A stretch of DNA of 64,000 nucleotides from Gonapodya prolifera JEL478 (Eukaryota > Monoblepharomycota > Monoblepharidomycetes > Monoblepharidales > Gonapodyaceae). Where the stretch lies: assembly GCA_001574975.1 (NCBI GenBank), contig KQ965746.1, positions 195,812 to 259,811 of the forward strand. The letters are read 5' to 3'. Positions 1,987 to 63,845 of the stretch are shown in pieces (the first letter of the stretch is position 1; the number at the start of each line of letters is the position of its first letter). The position numbers and the translations under genes are program-made. The notes beneath the pieces are model-generated. The model was not told the DNA's origin, did no database searches, and saw nothing but the letters and a program-made list of their open reading frames with translations.

Positions 1987-3560
1987 ATGCCTCCAAAACC
2001 GCCGGCCCATCCCATCCTTCCGAAACTACAAGGAGTCTTTGCTGTATTCAAACCTGAAGGAATCACCTCCGCCGAATGCCTCAACAATCTCAAAATCAAG
2101 ATCGAGCGAGAGCTGTTTGGTGTCAAGGCCGGTCGGGGCCGGTTTAAGATCAAGCTGGGTCATGGAGGGACGCTGGATCCCATGGCAACTGGCGTTCTAG
2201 GCAAGTTTTCTAATTTGTCCGGGGATTGGTCCTGGGGCAGGGTTTCATCAGACATTTCTTCACCCTTGGTGATGGACCCCAATCTTCACAGTGGTTGGCA
2301 TCAATACGGGGACAAAGCTCCTCTCCCAATTCCTTAGTTGCTCAAAGACCTATGTAGCCGGTGCCCGCACGGGCTCCTCGACGGACACGTTCGACCGGCT
2401 GGGTCAAATCGTCAAGACTGCACCATTCGATCACATCACCGAACAATTGGTCAGGGACAGCCTTCAACCGTTTCGTGGTGAAATCCAGCAAATTCCACCC
2501 GTATACTCGGCACTTCGAGTGGAGGGGAAGAGAATGTAAGCTTTTGAATCTCCGCATAGCCGAACCAACAATTTTGAACTACGGGGAGTGACACGATCCT
2601 ATCCTGCGCTATTCAAGGTACGAGTACGCGCGCGAAGGCAGATCCCTTCCTGACGGCAAAGCCCTGGAACCTCGCCAAGTGACTGTCTTCGAGCTCGAAC
2701 TTGTGGACTACCACTCCGGCGACTCCACCAACAACTTTACCGAAACCCCGGCCGAAGATGATATCATCCCTGTCAAAATGGAAGCGCTGGACTACTCCGA
2801 AGCGTCGACATTGCTCGACCCACCTGTAAAGAGGAAGTTGGAAGAAGAGGGACAGGAGGGTGTGGCCAAGAAGGCACGAGTAGATATACCTGTTCATCAG
2901 ACGAATGTGTGGACGGGCGAGGGTGTTTCACAGACGGTGGATTCGGAGGACACTAAACCTGACCTTTTGAATGGTCTCGACATCAAGGTCAAACTGGAAA
3001 TGCTTGCAGAACCCCTTCCCTCCATCGACCCGGTACCCTCCATCGACCCCATACCCCCCATCGATCCTTCACCCTCCATCGACCTCGCCAACCTTACACC
3101 CCGCGTCCCCGCCGGCTCACTGGCGTACAAACCATCTCCCAGTCGACCGCCACCCTTGCACCCTTCTCAGTTCCCCCAGGGCCCCGTCTTCGGCTTGCGC
3201 ATCGTTTCATCAGGCGGGTTCTACGTGCGTAGCCTGATAAACGATTTGGGCAAGGCACTCAACACTGCCGCTCACATGATCAGTCTGGAGAGGGTGCGAC
3301 AGGGTCCATTTGAGCTGGAGCGGGCGCTGAGAGAGGACAGAGGCGACTGGAAGGTCGATAAGATCCTGGAACAGATCGACTGGGCGTTTTCAGAGGGAGG
3401 AATCAAAAGGAAACAAAAAGGGCTCGTCGTGTTGGGTATTGTGCCGGCGGACGAAGTGAAGGTAGAACCGGAAGATGATGTCAAGGGAGGGGGGCAAGGA
3501 GTGGCGGAGGGGGAGGGCGAAGGCGGAGAGGATCAGGGTGAGGACGGAGGAGAAGAATAA
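1987..3560 (+). CDS. PUS4: TruB/Pus4-family tRNA pseudouridine-55 synthase with long acidic insert
   Basis: The enzyme isomerises U55 in the T-loop of tRNAs. Exon 1 (1987-2200) carries GVFAVFKPEGITSAECLNNL and the catalytic block LGHGGTLDPMATGVL with the active-site Asp. Exon 2 (2292-2535) carries SKTYVAGARTGSSTDTFDR and QQIPPVYSALRVEGKRM. Exon 3 (2618-3560) begins YEYAREGRSLP and ends with FGLRIVSSGGFYVRSLINDL, typical of TruB. Intron 1 (2201-2291) is a GC-AG intron: it restores V-V-G-I-N-T-G. Intron 2 (2536-2617) is GT-AG. Between the two core halves of exon 3 lies an insert of roughly 140 residues with an NLS-like KKARV and four 6-residue PSIDP-type units (about 3018-3085). The acidic Gly/Glu tail is also unusual. 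A longer N-terminus from 1885 is possible. The family is certain; nuclear or mitochondrial location is inferred. Confidence 0.92.
2201..2291 (+). other. GC-AG intron in PUS4
   Basis: The donor reads GCAAGT directly after the codon for Leu of the ATGVL motif, and the acceptor is CACAG before TGGTTGGC. Joining 2200 to 2292 gives GVL-VVGINTGTKLL, which is the conserved TruB continuation. No GT donor nearby gives this result. Confidence 0.8.
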
Positions 3561-3822: not shown

Positions 3823-5346
3823 CTATCGCGTAACGAGGTTCTTAATCTGCTCGAAGAATACAAAGGTGAGGATGGTGTGAGGGCCAAGACGAATGAAGGC
3901 GGACAGCCAGCCTGAGTATCAAACGTTGAAAGGTGTAGTTTGTTTAGCATCGTTTCGGACCGGTATTTTTCGAGAGTGGACTCACCCTTGAAGAAGGCGC
4001 CCGGACCCTCCTTTGTTCCAATCTTGACGAAGGCGTCAATCATTCCCTATGGATCAAAGTTACCCATTTTGTCACGCATTCGTGGTGGTGAGACGGCATT
4101 CGAAGATGTCAAGGCACCACCTGCAGCTTGAATTCAGAGGACGATCGGACCCACCTTATACTCTCCCTTCACGGGAGAGTACATGATTCTGGTCTTAACG
4201 ACGTCGACGGGCGAGGTGGCGGTCGTAGCAATGAGACCCTAAGTCGGTGGGGGTTTGTCATGGGTCAGCATCTGAGAGCAGCCGCAACAAGAAGATTTTC
4301 GACTCCGGTACAGGAATTCATGAGCGCAGAGGTCCTGGACCTCAGTCATTCAAAATGGATTGTACCACCATCCCGACATCTGCCCTCAAATAATCCACCG
4401 CTTGAGATCCTCACCGCCAACAAACTCGCTCCAAAGTGCGTCAGCACATTGTCCTGGAACCATCCCGACGCCAGCATCTGCGCCTTGACCACGTCATATG
4501 ACACAAGTTGTGAGCTCGTCATTACAATGGCCCTGCCAATGTTCGGGCTCAACCCCGTGAACAAGGCCGCTGTCCCTTCCTCGCGACGGATTCGGAGGAA
4601 TGCGTCGATCGCGTGCTTGTAGTTTCGCCGCTCCGCGGGGGGGAGCTTTGAGTCGGCCTGCATGCGGATATTGGCGAGGTCAAATGGGTTGCCTGAGTGC
4701 GAGAACGAATTTGCGTCAGAGCTTGAAGTTTAGGACAGTGTTGAGGAGGTAGCTTGTGGCCTCACCGGCAATGCCGCCAGCTGTTCCTCCAATAACCGCA
4801 GAACCGAGCTGTGTCCAGAAGTTCATGTTTCCGGTGCTAGTGAGATGCTTTTTCAGCTCTTCGTAGACACCGAAGCGGGTGGTACTGTATGTGGCCTGGC
4901 GAAGGATACTGTTTGCGGTTGGAAGAGTTTCGAACTAATATTTAGTTCGCAAGACGAGGAAGCGCAAAACACGCAAAGCATGAAACGGACCTCGCGCTAA
5001 GTCCAGCATAGAGTCCAATGATACCTTCTCCCTTGACGATGCTCGAAATTACGGCGACATAGCTCTGTTTCGGACCTTGTGACGTCTGAATACGGACTTT
5101 CAGCAAGCTTTATTGCCACGATAGGTAAATTAATACGAATTTTGAGGATAAGGGGATGAATGGCAACATGTGATGGTGGTTTAAATGAGTTAGTGCTCCG
5201 GACAAGCTGGCAGCGATCTTCAAATGCCATACGCACTCGATTGGGTGGGTGATTGATGCTGCCGCACAAGATGCTGCACCTCCCACCCTAAGAATTGTCG
5301 GAATGGATGCGAATGTCAGCTGGGGACCGCTGATTTGCGAACCCAT
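3823..5346 (-). CDS. DIC1: Mitochondrial carrier, dicarboxylate (DIC1) type
   Basis: This is a six-helix inner-membrane carrier with three repeats. The signature motifs are THPIDLLKVRIQTS (joined across an intron near 5237), NPFDLANIRMQADSKLPP and SPVDVVKTRIMY, each a P-x-D/E-x-x-K/R. The stretch RRNYKHAIDAFLRIRREEG and the ending GWLSAFIRLGPHTILTFVFF match the dicarboxylate carrier of yeast and animals better than the oxoglutarate carrier. At least five short introns break the gene. The stop is at 3823-3825. The start at 5346 gives MGSQISGPQL before the GGAASCAAASITHP block; a spliced upstream first exon is possible. It lies tail to tail with PUS4, about 260 bases apart. Substrate (malate or succinate exchanged for phosphate) is inferred from the family. 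Confidence 0.88.
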
Positions 5347-5678: not shown

Positions 5679-7723
5679 TCACCTGTCTCCCTCACAAAGA
5701 TCCAGTAAGTCCGCCAAAATCTCCACCACCACCTGAAATTCGGGCCGCGCATCCCTCTCGTTTTCCCAGCATTGCTCAACTATCTGCCGGAGAACCCGGG
5801 GCATTCCAGAGATGTTGGGTCGGAGTTTCCCAAGTTTTATCGCGATGATGTCATCTTCGTCTACTTCTGTACCATAGGGGGAATCCATTTGTAGCCAAAT
5901 CGCTGCACACACGATGCCAAATGAGTACACGTCATCCGATGAGTGTATCCCAACTGTTTCAAGTAATCTTTGGGGGGAAGCATAGTGGGCAGAACGGGGG
6001 TGCTTTTTCACTTGTTCTGCATTGAATTCTGTGGCTTCCAGTTTAAGAAGCGCGAGGGAGAAGTCGGAGATCATAGCGCGACCGTTCTCTGTGACCAAGA
6101 TGTTTCCTGGTTTCAGATTTGTGTGAATGTAGAGCCTATCATGAAGGAAGTTCATTCCTCGGGCTACGTCTGTCATCTGTTGAAGAATTGTGAGCATGAT
6201 GAGTGTGTCAAAATGAAGGGGAGGACGGGACGCGGGGATAATCACCAATTGAAGCTTTGCGCGTGTCGAGAGTTTCGGGTTATTATTTAAGTATGTGTCC
6301 AAATTTTCTTTCACAAGTGGTGCGACCGCGAATGTAACTGCTTTGCGCTCCGAGGAGAAACGACCCACGCCAAAAAGACGCAAGACAGAAGGATGCTGCA
6401 GCCTGGACCATACAGAGAGCTCTTGACGTGATGTCTGTGAACAATTTAGTTCTTTGGTGTTCTCGTCAGTTCTAGAAGGCCATACTCACCAAGACATCCT
6501 TCTGATCATCTTTTACCTGTGTATTAGCACTTTTGTCGGAAGTTAAAATCTTCACCATAATATCCTGGCCTTGCCAACGTCCTTGAATGAACTTCCAGCG
6601 ATGACCACTGGATTCAAGGGCAACTGGAGCCTTGGACATATCTTTACCGGTGAAAGAACAGTCCTCGAAGTTAATGGTAATGTCAAGGTCGTCATCTGAA
6701 GAATATCGAGGAGAGATGGAAGACGACTCCCCGGACTGCAACATGCTCTTCGTGCTTCCGGAAGACCTTACTGATCCTGTCTTTTCCAAGCCATCGACTT
6801 TCTGAAGTATTGTGTGCAGTATCGCCTTATTCTCCTGTACATTTGCCATGACGACTTTCACATTGTTGTTGATTTCAGCGAGGCGGGCGACAACAACTGC
6901 GAATGCTTTTTCAAATTCGTCATTTTGACGATCTAACATGTCTAAAATCTGGAAGGATTTTTTTGTATTGACCAGCTGGTGGTATTTATGCAATGAATTA
7001 ATACATTTGGTGGAGCAAGAAGACATATATATGACGTACCTGAGCAGTGACAGAGATTTCTTTGACCAATTTTTGATATTTCTTCCAGTACTGCTTGATC
7101 TTGTCACTTATTTCTTCTGCGCTCATTGCATCTTTGAAGTGCATGATCACTTGCGAAACTTGATACCATTTTTTCTTGGTACGCTTCTCTTGGGCATCAT
7201 CGCTCGCTACGGGCAACTCCAGTTTGAACCCCTTTCGAATTTCTTCGAGAAAACTGGATAACGAGTCAGCAGCCTATTTGAAGAGCGAAAATTTCAGACG
7301 TTCTTACACTTCCAGCTTTATGGCTTGCTTCTTCAAAGCCCCGCGTGCATCGTCCTTCGTCTTTTTATCCTCTGTATCGCAGCCTTTGCCCGTCTCAACA
7401 CTTTGCAGCAACCCAGTAATGTTCCCCAGTAGTGTGGTGCACCCTTCCAACAGCTGGTTCAAAATTTCTCGGTTGGTTGCACTCGTGTCCACATTCTCTA
7501 GAAATGTATAGAGCGCTCCCAGTATTTCAGCACATATTGCAAGCGGAGGACAGATCCCGGATGCGGTCTTTGCAACCAGCTCAGCGACCTTGACGAATGG
7601 TTTTGCCTTCGTCAACCAAGCCGGTCTGTCGCTAACCGTGGATCCTCCCGCGGGGTGCCTAACCATCGATCCTTCCGCCGGGTCAGTCACCATCGATCCT
7701 TCCGGCTGGCTGGTAACCATCAT
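5679..7723 (-). CDS. MLKL-like protein: N-terminal helical bundle plus TKL-type pseudokinase
   Basis: Exon 1 (about 7723-7309) starts with three 9-residue repeats of the form MVTxPxGS, then an amphipathic helical region (AKPFVKVAELVAKTASG ... EILGALYTFLENVD ... LNQLLEGCTTLLGN). The next exons continue with SFLEEIRKGFKLELP, WYQVSQVIMHFKDAMS and a coiled region ILDMLDRQNDEFEKAF. A kinase fold of tyrosine-kinase-like type follows from about 6600. The beta-3 lysine (GQDIMVKIL) and alpha-C Glu (RQELSVWSRLQHPSVLRLFG) are kept. The Gly-rich loop is degraded, HRD reads HTN (YIHTNLKPGNILV, near 6130), and DFG reads DFS (MISDFSLALL, near 6055). This predicts a catalytically dead kinase. The order of four-helix-like bundle then pseudokinase is that of animal and plant MLKL, executioners of regulated necrosis. 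Membrane-disrupting function here is inference from architecture only. Confidence 0.78.
7635..7720 (-). repeat. 27-bp in-frame tandem repeat in the pseudokinase N-terminus
   Basis: Copies of ACCATCGATCCTTCC-like sequence start at 7635, 7662, 7689 and 7716 on the plus strand, exactly 27 bases apart. On the minus strand they encode 9-residue units MVTSQPEGS, MVTDPAEGS, MVRHPAGGS. The period is a multiple of three, so length change keeps the frame. Confidence 0.85.
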
Positions 7724-38939: not shown

Positions 38940-41900
38940 ATGGATTTCTGGCGCTCACTCGCAGGCCAGAGAAGTGGATCGGGTAGAAGTGGATCGACGT
39001 CTGCTGCGGGGAAGGTTGAGGCAGATTCGCTTTTGCAAAAGGCATCGCCCGAGCAGTTGGCAGCCCAACTTCAACATGTGAGAGCGCGCGTTGTTTCACA
39101 GGGAACCACATCCTGGACATAATTGGTGCCTAGGTTTTATCACAGCTGCGATCCACTCAGTCGACTGATGTCAGAGTTGGGGCCATAGAGGAGCTGTCGA
39201 AGTTGGCTTACTTCTACGACATCTCATATGAAATCGATGAGGCATGGGAAACGGTACGATGCCTCATAGAAGATTCTGAAGAGCGCAATCGTCGTTGTGG
39301 GTGGAAATTTATCGCCGCGGCAGCGGAAGGCAACTATCAGCATCTAGGAGCTCGACGCAAGACATTTCTCCGTGCCCTTGCTCAACCGTTGAATCACGGA
39401 ACGGACTTTTCACTACAAGTAGAGCTCTTATTGCTGCTGACACGGGATGGGAAGGATACTTCTGGTGTAGAAAGCGAACTATCGATTGTGGCAGACTACT
39501 GGTGCCGGGCCTTTGCAGATCAATTGGCGTCTCGGAGAGCAGGGAAAGCGGTGAAAGGGGCGATGGATGTTAGCACCCTGAGGCCAATCGGTGGGACGGC
39601 CGGCTTAATTTCAACAATGGACGAAGCTCCCAGTTCAAGGGTTTCCGGAACCAACACCCCCCATCCGGTTTCTGTGATGAAGTTCACCCTTCCTTTGAGA
39701 GAAATGTCGATTTTGGTGGAATTTGTTGGGCGGGCTTTGCGAAATCGAACAGTTGGGATGACAGGAACCGCTGAAGCTACCCTACTTCAAGATGTTGCCC
39801 GGCTGCTTTCTCTGACCGTCGATCCGCAGATCAGAAGCGCCTTCGCGACCGAAGAGCTTGGACTTGATGTCATTGGCGATGAAGCCATCCGTGCGCTGGA
39901 AGGGGTGTGGGAGCAGTGCCCAATGTTTCCAACAGTGGTTGGGCCGATTGTACGAGCCTTTTGTTGCGCCATTGGCTTTCATAGTACGTTTGAGCGTGCC
40001 TGGCGTTCAATCAAAGGTCTCTTGCAATCCACATTTCGGCACACCGTCTCCCAGACTCTGTGTGATATTCTGGATACACCAGACGGGATTGAGGGTCAAA
40101 ATTCAGCCCGCGGTGCCATCTTCTGTCTTGGTATGGCCAGTTGGGGTGCAAAATCGGGTTTTGATTTCACGATACCCCGGAACCAAGTGTTGCGGAGTTT
40201 CTCGGAAGCTACCCTTCGTCGATGGGATGTCTTGGACTACGAGATACTCGTGGCATTGCACCGTCTGGTGCACCACAGTGACGTTAGAATGCAACAAACT
40301 GAGTGGCTTACAATCATCGAAATTCTTGTCCGGTTAAAACGACATCACAAGGCTTCCGTAGACGATCGAACTCCGAAAGAAGATGACAATGATTTCGGAG
40401 TTGCTCCTGAAAGCGACTCTGCTCCATCCGCATTGAGCCTTTATTCGAACCTGTTGAGATCGATTCGGAAGCTGAAGATGCAGAGCTCAGAGAGTGTGAT
40501 CTCAGACATCCCCGACAGCTTTATGGACCTGCAATTAGAGCTGTGTGGTGTATTAATTCCGTCTGTCTCACCGATGGATTTCTACCAATCCTCCGCGGCA
40601 TATGCGGCGCTGCACCCGAGCCAAGCTGACCAGAAACCAGCTTTCGTTCCGGGGAACTCCCGGAAACTTCTACCATCTTCTGTTGTGATTGATGTTCTCA
40701 ACTATGTGGAAGCGTCCCAACGTCTCTATCCAACCAACGGCTACTGGATGAACTTACTGATAGCAGTGTCTCAGTCATTCTATGCACAAGAAACACGCTC
40801 AAAAGTGCGACGGCGCTACTTGGAAATAGCGTTTCAACTTTATTGGTCGCTCAGAGAAAAGGACCGGCTTACTGTTCTCCAGAACGTTCTTCTTCCCTTC
40901 ATATACGATCATTTGGTTGAAGAGCGGGATGCCGATATTTTCCCAATGCTTACACAATTTGCAAAGCAAGTTTTTTGGCGAGAAACCAGTGCAGTAAGTA
41001 CGGGTGCCGAAAGGCTCTTACGAGCTCTCTTCAGATGCGCGCGACAGGAGATGGCTCGAGGTGCTACCGATTGCGCTGAACTTGCAGTTCAGTTGTTCTT
41101 AGGATGCCTCGATGGATCACACGGTAACAGCAAATGGGCACCCTTGGTATTTGAGAACTTAGTGAGCATTGCGAATTCGTCCGTTGGAAAAAACAGAGAT
41201 GCGCGGATGTCTGCGCTTAAATGTTTGCTGGATATTCGTGCGGACAGCGACTATAGATTGTGGTTTGCGGGAAGGGAAAACATTCCCACGCGTGGATCAA
41301 CGATAGATTTCGGGACATATTCCGCACGGGAGGAGACAGAACCCATGATCACTCAAGCGTTTGTGCCATCAGTTGTTTGCTATGTGGCAAAAGAAGACAC
41401 AGAGGATCTCACCCCGATGCAACTCAGTGCAGTGTCGATTCAACAAGGGTCAAAAGAATCAGTGGATGATTCGAGCTCGATCTCGAATGACTCTGTGAAC
41501 GATGACCCGATGCTTGTGGCCGAGAGCGACATCCTGATTGTAATGGACTCCATGGTTGATCTGCTTGTTGAAATCATGAGAAACGAGGCAGACTTTGAAG
41601 TGTACTCGTTGGTCATGGATAAGCTTGCGGTGCAGTTGAACTTCTTGCGGGTATTTGAACACTCCAGACTTGGCCTGCAGCGACTTCGCACTGTCTTGTG
41701 TGACTCCATTCTGAATGATCAACTTGCTCCAAACCTCAAACTTCCGAAAACAGTACGAAAGGCAGACCTGTACGTGCGAGCGTACCGCCTTTTGGCTGGG
41801 TTAATCCCATACGCGAAGCAAAGCTTCAGCAAATCAGATCAAGACGAGATTGTCGGTGCGTTCCAGCTAGGGCTAACCAAGTGGACACAAACGGCACGTC

Positions 41901-44163
41901 CTTGTACCCACGCGTTACTTCTATGCATGTACGAGCTCCCGCTATCTATGGTGAAGCATTTGGCGGGAACTCTTGACCGAATGGGAAGGATTATGTCCAC
42001 GACCGCAATCGCTGTGCATATATTGGAATTTTTGGTGTCTCTAATAAAGACCCCGAATCTTTGGGCAAACTTTGTGGAAGCTGATTATCAAAGAGTGTTT
42101 GCAATCGCACTTCGGTACATTTTACACGCTGCATCGGCTCCGCCGTCCGCTGGGCCTCAACCCGGCACATCTTCGACCAAAAGCGAGTCGATTCACCCAC
42201 ACCCTCGGGAGACAGCAAACGCTTCCCAATCCCATTTTAGTCCGGTTGCCCAAAATGCACTTGCACAATACGTGATATTCCTTGCTTATCATACCATAAC
42301 AGTGAGATAATTGTTTCTAGGAACCGGCGGCAACTCTAACGAAAGTCTCCTGGTAGCTCTGGTTCTCGTCTATACGGCTATCTGATCGTCGAAAGTTTGT
42401 TCCTTATATTTTGCGCAATCTCGCGCTCGCAAATGGCACTTCTAGGCCAATTGACGAGCGTATAGAAGTTTGTGTCGACATGTTGATGCGCTTCTCATTT
42501 GCAAATGCCGAGCCAAAGCCTCAGAAATCTCTTGTGACAAGAGTTATGTTCGACGATGCTCCTGCCGGACAGGTCCTCACAAAAACTTGGCTACAAGGTG
42601 AAAACTGCAATGCAAACACGTTGATCTCCTCCAATTACGTTCTTCTCTTCAGGGAATGCTTTATTGACGATAAGAGTACTGAAGTCGTCGTGCTGGGCGG
42701 AAATATCCATTCGGCGACCCACTGGCACCACTGTGTTTTTGTCGCGTCTGGAGAATAAATTTCGCGGAGAAGACATTGATGTTGTATCTGTTGCATCCAT
42801 CTTCATGACGGGAATTGAAGCACCAGCAAGCAACATTGCCGAAGATATCCAAGCCACACCCCTGCACCGTCATGGCCGAGTTGGGTCTGACAGTAATATT
42901 ACCAGCGCAGCAAGCAATACAGAAACTACTGGTGGAAGTGAAAGCCTACGGCGCTCGCGAACAAATCCTTCTTCTGGCCGACCTTTTATCCGAAGTACTC
43001 TCACTGACGGAGCCACGAAAAGCTCGGAAACCACAGACGGCCCTGTTTCCAGTGACTCTAGTGCAAGGGACGCTCAGTGGTCATCCATGAGCAGCAGCTT
43101 TACTTTGGAACCTCTTCTTCGGACCAAAACTGAGGCTGGTAACGGATACAATGCAATACGGAAGGACGATTTGCAGCTGTTCGAGCCAGCATTTGTCTTT
43201 TCCAGCTTGTCGCTATTCCCAGACCACAACCACCGAGATGAAGTGAGACTACTTCCAGACAATGCTGCAACATCTCGAGCATTGTCGGTTATGGACTTGA
43301 CGCCACTTATGGATCACTTTAACGTGGGCGTTGTCTATGTTGGACCAGGACAGACCACCGAAGTCGAAATATTGCAAAACACTGGGGGGTCTGCCGCTTA
43401 CAATGAATTTCTTGCTGGTCTTGGGAAATTTGTGAAGCTAAAAGGTCGCAAGGATATTTACGCAGGTGGTTTGAACACGGATGACGACATCGATGGAAGC
43501 GAAGCAGTACTTTGGAACGAGGGGGGAGGCCAAGTGATCTTTCACTGCGCCACTTTGATGCCCAATTATGAACATGATCCTAATTGCACAGCAAAGAAGA
43601 GACATATTGGCAATGACTTCGTTTTGATTGTGTGGAATGAGTCAGGGCGCCCCTTTGGCTTCCGAACAATTCCCAGCCAATTCAACTTCATTAATATAAT
43701 AATTGAGCCGGTGGATGCGCGCTACAGTTCAGGAACTGAAGGGAGTCGGCGTACACCGGACAATACGTACTTCAGGTTAATGACACAAAGACGGGAAGAC
43801 ATGCCTGAGTTCGGGCCTGTTTCGGAACCAAAGCTCGTCTCAGCTATCAGCATTCCAGCTTTGGTACGTCATCTTGCTATAACAGCAGATGTGTTTTCGC
43901 AACTCTTTCAAAAGCAAGGAGACGGAACCACACTGGAAGAATGGGTCTCGAACTGGCGAACCCGACTGCGCGACATAAAGCGGGTTCGTGAGCAATCTCA
44001 ACCCGGTCATACCGTACCTTCGCGTCAAGGATCAGTGGCGAATGTTGTTTCGCCCAGTCAGCTACCGAACACAAGCAGTGGTGCCGGACCAAGAGGGTTG
44101 TATAATGGACAGTCTCAGATGGACCAACTCGACGTTGTCCTTGATTTTACACGAAATACCTGA
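38940..44163 (+). CDS. TSC2: Tuberin (TSC2), GTPase-activating protein for Rheb
   Basis: Exon 1 gives MDFWRSLAGQRSGSGRSGS. A long HEAT-type exon (about 39149-42302) starts LRSTQSTDVRVGAIEELSKL and YDISYEIDEAWETVRCLIED. Splicing near 42303-42356 joins AYHTIT to LWFSSIRLSDRRKFVPYIL. The next exon has CVDMLMRFSFANAEPKPQK and LTKTWLQG. A later exon opens with CWAEISIRRPTGTTVFLSRL, equivalent to the human GWAEILVRRPTG block. The Rap/Ran-GAP domain (about 43180-43990) has EPAFVFSSLSLFPD, VGVVYVGPGQTTEVEIL and FLAGLGKFVKLKGRKDIYAG. The catalytic 'Asn thumb' is in HIGNDFVLIVWNESG (Asn codon 43612-43614), and FNFINIIIEP follows. The active residue is present. TSC2 restrains TORC1 by inactivating Rheb. 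Whether TSC1 is present cannot be judged from this window. Confidence 0.94.
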
Positions 44164-59470: not shown

Positions 59471-62400
59471 ATGGAGCATCTCGCAGAACTCGCCGGGTCC
59501 TTCCACAGACCGCGCCCGCTCTCAATCACATCCACACACTCCGCTTCCTCAAAACGGTCCGACTCGCCCGGGAGACAGTCGTCCGTCATGAAGACGGTCA
59601 GCTTCTAACGCTGTCTCTCTCTCCTTCTCCGCCCTCCTCGCCAACTCACCACATTCCCCCCCCTCTCCCGCTGCAGACTTCACGCGCTGGAAGATCCGTC
59701 GAGGGAACCACCTTTTACCGCGTGAGTTGCCAATCTTTGCTTTCGTACGCTCCTCCGGCCTCTCACAGTCGACACTCCCGATTCTTCACCTTCACGCCTG
59801 ATTCTTCACCTTCACCCCTTCGGATACCTCTCCGCTCGCGACCCCAATCTCTCAGCCGCGCGGTTCCACAACCCTTCCTCCAAAATGTACTGTCCCTACT
59901 CTCGCCCTTCTCCGCATTGCTCGCTACTCACTCATCTCTCGCCCCTGATTTCACTCCTTTCTCCTTCTCCGCTCACGTGAACCTGACACTCCAGTTGTCC
60001 TTGGCGTCGCAGCAATGGACCAAAAGGCCCGCTCAAAGCCCATGCGCAACATTCTCAACAGACTGCTTTCGCTTGGAGAATTCGAAATTGTCATTTTCGG
60101 GGACAAGGTCCTTCTCGATGAAGGTACGGACTGTTGGCGTCTGGGGATTGCGACGAGGAGGTTGCTTAGAGCAAATGGATAACTGACGCTATTGTGCTGG
60201 AGACGGTGGAATTACGGACGGGGGTTACGGAGTGTTGGGGCAGTGTTGTCACCTCCAGAATCTGCACAAACTTCCAACTAGTTTGCTGCGGAGGGTGGTG
60301 GGAACGTGCCACGTCCGCAAAACTGCACATTCGGTCGCGTTTGCGGGAGGGAGGGCCGTGGCGTGTCACCATCTAAAATGCTTAACCACACATCATATCC
60401 TTCCCACTGCGCCCCATCCTCCCCCACAGAACCCGAAACCTGGCCCTCCTGCGACTTCCTCATCTCCTTCTTCTCCGCGGGCTTCCCCATGGCCAAAGCT
60501 CTGCGCTACGTGCGCCTCGCCGCGCCCTTCTGCGTCAACGACCTCGCGTACCAGCAACTCTTGTGGGACCGGCGCGTCGTGCTTCGCATCCTGGACCACA
60601 CGGGCGTGCGCACGCCGCGCCGCATCGTCGCGAACCGCGACCTGCCCACCCTCCCGCCCGACCTCGTCGAGGACGTCCGCGCCAACGGCGGGCCCGATTT
60701 GGGCCCCACCACCTGGCCCATGACGGACGTCGGGGTCGTGGACGCCGATACGATCAGGCAGGGCTCTGTGACTCTGCGCAAGCCATTTGTGGAGAAACCA
60801 GTGTCGGGGGAGGACCACAATGTGTGGATATACTACCCTGAGTCGTCAGGCGGCGGGGTGCGCAAACTGTTCAGGAAGGTCAATAACAAGAGCTCTGAGT
60901 TTGTCGTTGGGCCCGTGGAGCTGCGGAGGGATGGGTCCTACGTGTACGAGGAGTTCATGACGGTGGATAATTTGGAGGACGTCAAAGTGTACACTATCGG
61001 AGACTCGTATGCGCATGCTGAGACCAGGAAGTGGGTTTCATGTTTGTCGTGGGAAGGGGGGTAGGGGAGTAGGAGGGATGGGGAAAGTGGACAGGACAGT
61101 CAATGAAGATGTGGGCGACATCCGTTCGTCGCCCTCATCGCCGTTGCAGAGGAGAGGAAATTGGAGTTTTGACATTGTCCCCAAAATTCCAGAGGAGCGC
61201 AGGATCGGAGCATCGGAGGCTTGACAGGGGTGGTTGTGATGTGGAACCTGGCGGTCTCTCTTCGACTACTTCCCCTATTCTTATCTTTGCACCTGTTCAC
61301 TCACCCGCCGATCCATCTCTCCCACCGGCAGATCCCCCGTCGTGGACGGCGTGGTCCAGCGCAACGCCGAAGGCAAGGAAATCCGATACATCACCCCCCT
61401 CACGGACGCTGAGAGGGACATGGCACGCAAGGTGTGTCTCGGATTCCGCCAGGCCGTTTGCGGGTTCGACTTGCTCAGAGCAGGTGGAAACAGCTACGTG
61501 ATCGATGTCAATGGATGGTGGGTGTTGTTGGGTTTGGTGGTCAAGGAGTCACGTCTCGACCGTTTGAGTCTTGGACACGGACCCGTTCACCACCTAGCCC
61601 GATATTAACCCCCAAACTGTACGCTCATACTGTCTCCCTCATTCCTTTCACCCTCGACCCAGGTCCTTCGTGAAGGGTAACGACGAGTACTACGACAACT
61701 GCTGCCACCGGCTCCGCCTTATGTTCCTGCAAGCTGCCGAACGGCGGCAAATCCCTCCCACTGCTGCTTCGAGTGAACCAACGCTAGAATCGGCGTGGCG
61801 ACTAAAATCCTTCGTGTCGGTCCTCCGTCACGCGGACCGCACGCCCAAGCAAAAACTCAAGTTCTCCCTGCGTTCCCCACCCTTCATGGCCCTCCTGCGG
61901 GGCGCCGAGGAGGAAGTCGTGCTCAAGAAGCAGGAGGAGCTGAGTGACGTTGTTAAGGCCGCGGACGAGGCTCTGAAAGATGGGTTGGAGGATAAGGCTC
62001 ACATGGAGCAGTTGTGCATGGTTATGGACAAGAAGGGTGGGATGGCCGGAACGAAGGTTCAGGTGAAGCCGGTCTTTAATAAGAAGGACAGATCGTTGGA
62101 GAAGGTGCAGTTGGTGGTGAAGTGGGGGGGTGAGGTACGTGTTTGTGGGAAGACGAGGGGAACAAGAAACGTTGATCTGCAGTTGATTTTGACGCCACCT
62201 GTTTTTAAGTTCACCCACGCTGGGCTCCACCAATCCAAGGATCTGGGACTCAACTTGCGCAAAGACCTCGTCTTGATGAACCGGAAGGTGCTTGATGACG
62301 TGAAGCTGTACCTGAGCAGCGAGCGGCGCGTTGCAGCAACGGCGGAGATTTTCCTCAACACATTTTTGAACGGGCAGGAGCTACCTAAAGAGGCAATGGG

Positions 62401-63845
62401 TAAGTCCAGAAGCAATGATGGTGGAGCGTGCGTGGTGCGCTGTTTGCTGACTGTGGTTTTCTGGGCAGTCGTAAACAGGGCGATGTTGGACGATTCGGAC
62501 GCGGCGAAGGAGCAGATGGAGCTGGTCAAGACGAAGCTCCAAGAGATTCTCAATGCGCCAACAGGGTCGAGCAAGATGAACCTGTTGCCCCCTGGGTTCA
62601 TCCTCCCAGCCGAGGTGAGAGACTGGGTGGGGTGACAACTCACGCGGTCCCCTGACGGTGATATCAATATCCTTATTACGTCGCTCAGATGGTTGACCCG
62701 GCTGTCACTTTGACCGAGGTGATCGAAATGATGGGGCAGCTGCGTGCTATTATGAAGGAAAATCTTAAAACAATGAACATGGACACCATCCAAACAAAGT
62801 GGTGCTGCCAGGACACGCCGTTCCTTGTCGTGGTGAGCATTGTATTCCTTCGGGAGTGGCGTGGCGGGAAACTTGTTCCACCTGAACCCCTTGTCTCATC
62901 ACTTTTCAGGAGCGTTGGGAAAAGCTGTTTGAAAACTTTTGTGACGTGGACCGCTCGGCTGTGGAACCATCCAAAATCAGCGAGTTGTATGATTCGTGCA
63001 AGTTCGATGCCCTGCACAACCGCGAGTTCCTTTTTGGTCTCTTCTCAAATGCCGAGCACGGCAAGGAACTCATCCGCCGGCTATGGTACAAGGCCAAGGA
63101 CTTGTTCGACTTCGTTGCCCCCCAGGAGTATGGTGTTGAGCGTTCTGAAAAGCTCGAGATCGGGGTGCTCAGCGCACTGCCTTTGGTGAAGAAGCTGGTG
63201 CAGGAGATTGAAGATGCGAGGGATTCGGTTACACCGTGCACGAGACTGTTCTTCACTAAAGAGAGCAAAATCATCACGCTACTTAACGTGATCATTGCCG
63301 CAGGGTTCCCGGTCAAGTTATCGTACTCGCCAAAAGAGGTCGACGAAGTGGACTGTTGAGTTGATGGTGGTTGAGTTCTTGTTTTGCGAACGAGTCTTAT
63401 TCTGTCGGTCACTGAAGACCTCACCCAAATTGTTTTTGAGCTCTACGAGCGTGTTCGAACGACAAACGCGAGCTCCACTGTCAGCTCTCCCGGTAATTCA
63501 TCCCCGCAGGAAGACGGCCAACCGACCTCCACTCCCAACCAATCGCCCCAGCTCAGCCAAAGAGCCACAACACCCCGTCCCACAACACCTTCGTGGCCTC
63601 GCGATTATTCTATCCGCCTTTCGTTCAGTCCCGGCGCGCACGACAACAACGTCATCGACACCCAGATGGACGGGCGCCATTCATTGTCGACCGCCCCACG
63701 GCGGTGGATAACAAACCACATCAATTTGGACGAGGCGTTGGCGTTATTTAAGTCTTTGGTGGAAAAGTACGACAAACGCGTCCGCTCGACTCCCGAAATT
63801 GCGGACAGCGTTCCCGCACCAGTTGTTGGAGCACCGGCAGTGTAG
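59471..63845 (+). CDS. VIP1: Inositol hexakisphosphate/diphosphoinositol-pentakisphosphate kinase (Vip1/Asp1/PPIP5K)
   Basis: The enzyme makes and breaks inositol pyrophosphates (1-IP7, IP8) in phosphate and morphogenesis signalling. The leader [20 protein letters not shown] is Ser-rich. The ATP-grasp kinase domain starts [20 protein letters not shown]. Next are [58 protein letters not shown] and [20 protein letters not shown], then a DVNGWSFVKGN junction. The histidine-phosphatase-like half has [16 protein letters not shown] (near 61820), with the catalytic RHxxR-type motif intact. [57 protein letters not shown] and [20 protein letters not shown] follow. [19 protein letters not shown]-like and [11 protein letters not shown] segments end the fold. 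At least ten introns are present. Both activities look possible. Confidence 0.93.

Follow-up and report, generated by a model that had tools for sequence, protein, structure and literature searches.

We identified a family of three related genes in Gonapodya prolifera JEL478, a monoblepharidomycete belonging to the chytridiomyceta, which encode a predicted helical N-terminus followed by a kinase-like domain without a key catalytic residue. The first member, referred to as A, is a five-exon gene on the minus strand of a 64,000-nucleotide stretch of DNA (the window, positions 5679-7723), which lies within contig C16 of a 47.6 Mb assembly of 207 contigs. Its paralogues B (577 aa) and C (663 aa) are located on contigs C131 and C2 and are 36% and 38% identical to A, respectively. 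Domain order, shared lesions and kinase membership were established directly for this trio. Its members combine a helical N-terminal region, predicted to form a bundle, with a TKL kinase domain lacking the catalytic Asp. Judged from sequence, they may work as an MLKL-like phospho-switch, a reading that we favor tentatively.

The kinase domain of A begins near residue 310 and is of the TKL type. The beta-3 Lys (K352, codon 6550-6552) and the alpha-C Glu (E377, codon 6420-6422) are present and the GxGxxG loop is absent. HRD is replaced by HTN (residues 453-455, positions 6117-6125), exchanging the catalytic Asp for Asn, and DFG by DFS (residues 473-475, positions 6057-6065), exchanging Gly for Ser; the positions of K352 and DFS were computed from the exon table. 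The retained Lys and Glu, the degraded Gly-rich loop, HTN and DFS had been read correctly in an original prediction made from the DNA letters of the window. HTN and DFS are common to A, B and C, and the beta-3 Lys, alpha-C Glu, DFG Asp and catalytic-loop Asn are retained in all three, which places the trio among TKL-type kinase domains without a catalytic Asp. Finding the same lesions at such low overall identity is more than chance, and they are old and maintained.

Residue usage was compared with 44 other Gonapodya kinase domains (40 loci chosen by similarity to the A kinase, two loci with an MLKL_N domain described below and two picked for reading HTN). The catalytic Asp was kept in 41 of these 44 rows and DFG in 39, DFS did not occur in any, and the GxG loop was found in 35 of the 36 readable rows. 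HRD Arg was present in only 5/44 rows and HTD was read in 13/44. The original prediction had listed HTN as a whole among the kinase changes. The meaningful change is Asp-to-Asn; the Arg-to-Thr exchange is no sign of degeneration here because HTD is frequent among these Gonapodya kinases. The marks that distinguish the trio are thus Asp-to-Asn, DFS and the loss of the Gly-rich loop. The TKL expansion of this genome is itself very large, with at least 136 exon-level kinase matches at E <= 0.001. Most of the 44 compared rows have another residue in place of the HRD Arg (HTD, HAD, HLD), with the Asp kept.

Sequence conservation within the trio is uneven. It is highest in the kinase lobe, with 47% identity in each pair, compared with 27-30% for the N-terminus and 16-22% for the linker. 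In every pair, and for N-terminus, linker and kinase alike, the proportion of nonsynonymous differences (pN) was below that of synonymous differences (pS), a one-sided test because pS is saturated (0.75-0.87). This indicates, at the level of sequence, constraint on the trio. Genome searches were carried out exon by exon without introns, with the best candidates alone scored. Using the N-terminus of A, itself and B were the only matches (E <= 1), and the N-terminus of C found all three loci, the next locus following at E 0.86.

A corresponds to the 600-aa database entry P0001 ('kinase-like protein [Gonapodya prolifera JEL478]'), whose sequence is reproduced without a single difference when the window exons are translated with 6976 as the acceptor of intron 2. 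Our first splice model, based on splice signals and frame (7723-7308, 7253-7040, 6975-6490 or 6948-6490, 6434-6246, 6176-5679), differed solely in using acceptor 6949, which drops nine residues; positions 7723 and 5679 are the exact start and stop codon ends. Exon 1 (7308-7723) holds the start codon, a low-confidence lead (residues 1-35), predicted helices 1 to 3 and the start of helix 4. It is followed by intron 1 (7254-7307, 54 bp, phase 2) and by exon 2 (7040-7253) with the remainder of helix 4 and two further predicted helices (residues 157-176 and 184-209). After intron 2 (6976-7039 in the public model), exon 3 (6490-6975) encodes a predicted long helix (residues 231-271), the linker and the kinase N-lobe with its degraded Gly-rich loop. 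Intron 3 (6435-6489, 55 bp, phase 0) precedes exon 4 (6246-6434), which runs from the alpha-C helix onward, and exon 5 (5679-6176) carries the catalytic loop, activation segment, C-lobe and stop. Between the latter two lies intron 4 (6177-6245, 69 bp, phase 0), which is in frame so that the stop-to-stop open reading frame (ORF) reads through it. As a correction to the original prediction, this fourth intron splits the kinase. In B and C, for which we made splice models in this analysis, introns 1, 3 and 4 are found at the same places. Overall, A, B and C have in common a phase 2 intron within helix 4 and three phase 0 introns, of which one follows the N-terminal domain and the others precede alpha-C and the catalytic loop. 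Given the shared plan and the identical lesions in both paralogues, the N-terminal exons are part of this gene, as had been assumed.

The N-terminal helices of A are predictions of modest confidence. Exon 1 modelled alone, from a single sequence, yielded four helices with a predicted local distance difference test score (pLDDT) of 62 and no confident match in the PDB, and PDB sequence searches with the N-terminus of A returned nothing convincing. For helices 157-176, 184-209 and 231-271, the 10-residue mean pLDDT was about 28-48, again from single-sequence prediction. Several amphipathic helices had been claimed for this region. Compared with shuffled sequences, amphipathicity was clear in three of them (42-54, 82-111 and 184-209; fractions 0.010, 0.013 and 0.000), borderline in two (59-77 and 120-148; 0.073 and 0.060) and absent in two (157-176 and 231-271; 0.37 and 0.14). 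A coiled, brace-like region is weakly supported, as heptad bias exceeded shuffles in A (fraction 0.028) but in neither B (0.50) nor C (0.17).

A survey for relatives with an active kinase, suggested by the original prediction, turned up two tandem loci on contig C2 (G000:C2, ca. 332-337.5 kb; L023 2191-4267 and 5694-7435). Both matched MLKL_N over the Pfam cut-off (hmmscan, E 1.9e-8 and 5.2e-7), and their exons run into TKL kinases reading intact GGGAFG, VAVK, HRD and DFG. These loci are the genome's recognizable MLKL_N proteins. C lies on the same contig, ca. 28 kb further; the MLKL_N loci adjoin neither C nor the window gene and no linkage is drawn. In a 52-row FastTree tree of kinase domains, built without animal or plant MLKL, the trio came out as a single clade (support 0.978) within the Gonapodya TKLs, next to neighbors whose placement is weak, and the MLKL_N kinases grouped with five reference kinases, some of them from plants (node support 1.0). 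The kinases nearest to the trio were L047 and L066, at supports of 0.80-0.95 and with L072, a long branch, falling inside this group; neither L047 nor L066 showed a trio-like N-terminus by eye in the readable stretch. Going by sequence, the trio probably arose as an independent assembly of the plan, drawn from the TKL expansion of Gonapodya itself and not inherited from its MLKL_N genes. An intron at the bundle end shared between the trio and the MLKL_N loci was also considered and dropped, as places and phases, with frames read by eye, did not clearly agree.

The layout together with a dead but conserved kinase fits a switch. In such a switch, the bundle would be kept inactive by the pseudokinase. 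It would be released once one of the many intact TKL kinases of the genome phosphorylates the activation segment, where the trio conserves a Ser/Thr-x-x-Tyr-x-Ser-Pro motif as a possible phosphosite; the two C2 kinases with an MLKL_N domain are among the candidates. The freed bundle would oligomerize, with a membrane as the most likely site, and thereby kill or permeabilize the cell. A more far-reaching version, which we consider unlikely, is that the MLKL plan was built twice in this genome, once as two tandem genes joining MLKL_N to an active kinase and once as the three-member pseudokinase family, which would combine the organism's own TKLs with an unrelated or unrecognizably diverged bundle. 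Together these would form a necroptosis-like pair, with the active MLKL_N kinases triggering the pseudokinase effectors.

Two points weigh against an MLKL-like switch. The N-termini of A, B and C gave no row for MLKL_N (PF22215) at E <= 10 in hmmscan, to which the HMMER filters apply. As this profile does detect the two tandem loci on C2, the null result came from a test with power here. Additionally, active kinases often carry similar activation-segment residues, which makes the phosphosite a weak hint. HeLo (PF14479) and RPW8 (PF05659) likewise had no match in the three N-termini at E <= 10 and none in the genome at E <= 0.1. The earlier identification of the N-terminus as an MLKL, HeLo or RPW8 bundle is thus unsupported by sequence. 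The wider proposal of an MLKL-like architecture stands for the layout of helical N-terminus, helical linker and TKL pseudokinase, which is repeated in three paralogues, but not for a match to any of these domains. A profile comparison of the trio N-termini with the MLKL_N exons of the same genome was not significant.

Further profiles were tried on the N-terminus. SesA (PF17107) remained below its gathering score of 26.3, with 16.8 bits in A, 13.0 in C and none in B. The matches in A and C fell at one register and were lost in a hybrid consensus, where other families ranked top (Importin_rep_6 best, E 0.001, under its cut-off). A SesA identity was for this reason not relied on. The best SesA place in the genome was on another contig and below cut-off (E 0.048). 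PF17111, tried as a HeLo-like profile, proved to be PigL_N in the copy used and had no match, and other Pfam families on the trio N-termini were scattered and all sub-threshold. NCBIfam returned kinase families for A and one weak non-kinase row (E 0.094, residues 216-280).

We ranked the MLKL-like switch above a scaffolding or allosteric pseudokinase, which follows closely as a somewhat less probable explanation. Here, the helical N-terminus and the long helix would dimerize and the dead lobe would activate or tether active Gonapodya TKLs, with no attack on membranes. Many partners would be available among the exon-level kinase matches, no other part of the trio is as well conserved as the kinase lobe, and the structure-match list contains talin and vinculin bundles, although at scores that the tool describes as common when models are helical. 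The heptad bias of A would suit a dimerizing helix, but B and C do not share it. A weakly active or unusual kinase is a distinctly less likely possibility. The Lys, Glu, DFG Asp and loop Asn retained in all three proteins could leave some catalysis or a nucleotide-dependent activity despite Asn in place of the catalytic Asp. However, all members of the trio combine changes in the catalytic Asp, the Gly-rich loop and the DFG Gly, whereas the other Gonapodya kinases compared overwhelmingly keep these features.

That the genes are decaying duplicates whose lesions accompany no function seems very improbable. The low overall identity of the paralogues would be expected from decay, but the frames are open, the lesions are shared and pN stays below pS in every pair and segment, within the one-sided reading that saturated pS allows. 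We give least credence of all to a gene-model artefact in which the N-terminal exons stem from another gene, as the public model and two paralogous loci share exon order and intron phases.

Protein searches with A covered 5.77 billion sequences. Residues 30-330 of the 591-aa form returned A alone (1 of 4252 candidates). Two further searches, which scored 7997 and 7998 candidates, gave 22 and 85 proteins including A itself; the rest have kinase domains listed and match no more than 55% of the query length (8 were aligned). B and C appeared in none of the three results, and absence there is weak evidence.

Additional observations were made on other kinases and on the window. L081 (G000:C5) is likely another pseudokinase, as its aligned row has HGS at the HRD position and DWG at the DFG position. 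Two HTN kinases, L040 (G000:C33) and L041 (G000:C149), were rejected as trio members, since by eye Sel1-like repeats follow and they branch elsewhere; L041 keeps DFG and L040 reads DLG. On contig C152 (G000:C152, ca. 23.1-26.5 kb), L078 and L084 comprise a TKL kinase (HAD, DFG) followed on the same strand by NB-ARC and, by eye, TPR-like repeats, apparently as one gene, and further NB-ARC matches are found close to another TKL match of this contig. Elsewhere in the window, exons of a tuberin (TSC2) homologue with DUF3384, Tuberin and Rap_GAP domains were found at 39203-44160 (+). Housekeeping-like ORFs were scanned at 4346-4663 (-, mitochondrial carrier), 2679-3560 (+, TruB-like pseudouridine synthase C-terminus) and 61670-62635 (+, histidine-phosphatase domain).

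If the switch reading is correct, regulated lytic death controlled by switches of this bundle-pseudokinase type would extend to a fungal lineage that diverged early, and evolution would seem to have assembled the plan more than once. On the more modest reading, there is still a new pseudokinase family that has been maintained within a large TKL expansion and whose members all carry the same lesions (HTN, DFS). Among the matches listed in our literature search, no title or abstract dealt with A, with MLKL-type genes of Gonapodya or with an HTN/DFS trio of Monoblepharidomycetes.

Compared with animal and plant MLKL (MLKL_N, PF22215, plus TKL pseudokinase), the trio shares a predicted helical N-terminus and linker and a C-terminal TKL-type pseudokinase, and MLKL also retains the beta-3 Lys. 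The trio differs in having no detectable MLKL_N match, a kinase that starts only near residue 310 and a bundle whose fold is predicted. Fungal MLKL-type proteins are already known as an idea, so the proposed extension of the MLKL plan to early-diverging fungi is only partly new. An MLKL is named in Basidiobolus meristosporus (PMC11476962) and MLKL-family homologues (family 1.A.105), said to carry Sel1 repeats, are described in Glomeromycotina (PMC8778642). By these descriptions, they are MLKL-type annotations in early-diverging fungi, with the difference that Pfam shows no Sel1 repeats in A. The fungal HeLo, HELL, SesA and Goodbye domains and the basidiomycete MLKL_NTD, as described in PMC9815663 and PMC12881547, are short helical N-terminal domains too, and A and C show a weak resemblance to SesA. 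In contrast, the trio passes no threshold and the domains described there mostly sit on NLRs or NLR-controlled effectors, although a figure legend mentions HELL domains in proteins with a kinase or pseudokinase domain (PMC12881547). Another close comparison lies within the Gonapodya genome, where the two MLKL_N-TKL loci also place a helical domain before a TKL kinase, on the contig that holds C, but carry intact kinases on another branch of the tree. Intact MLKL_N kinases beside a dead-kinase family constitute a built-in comparison within one genome, and the division of work between them is directly testable in yeast.
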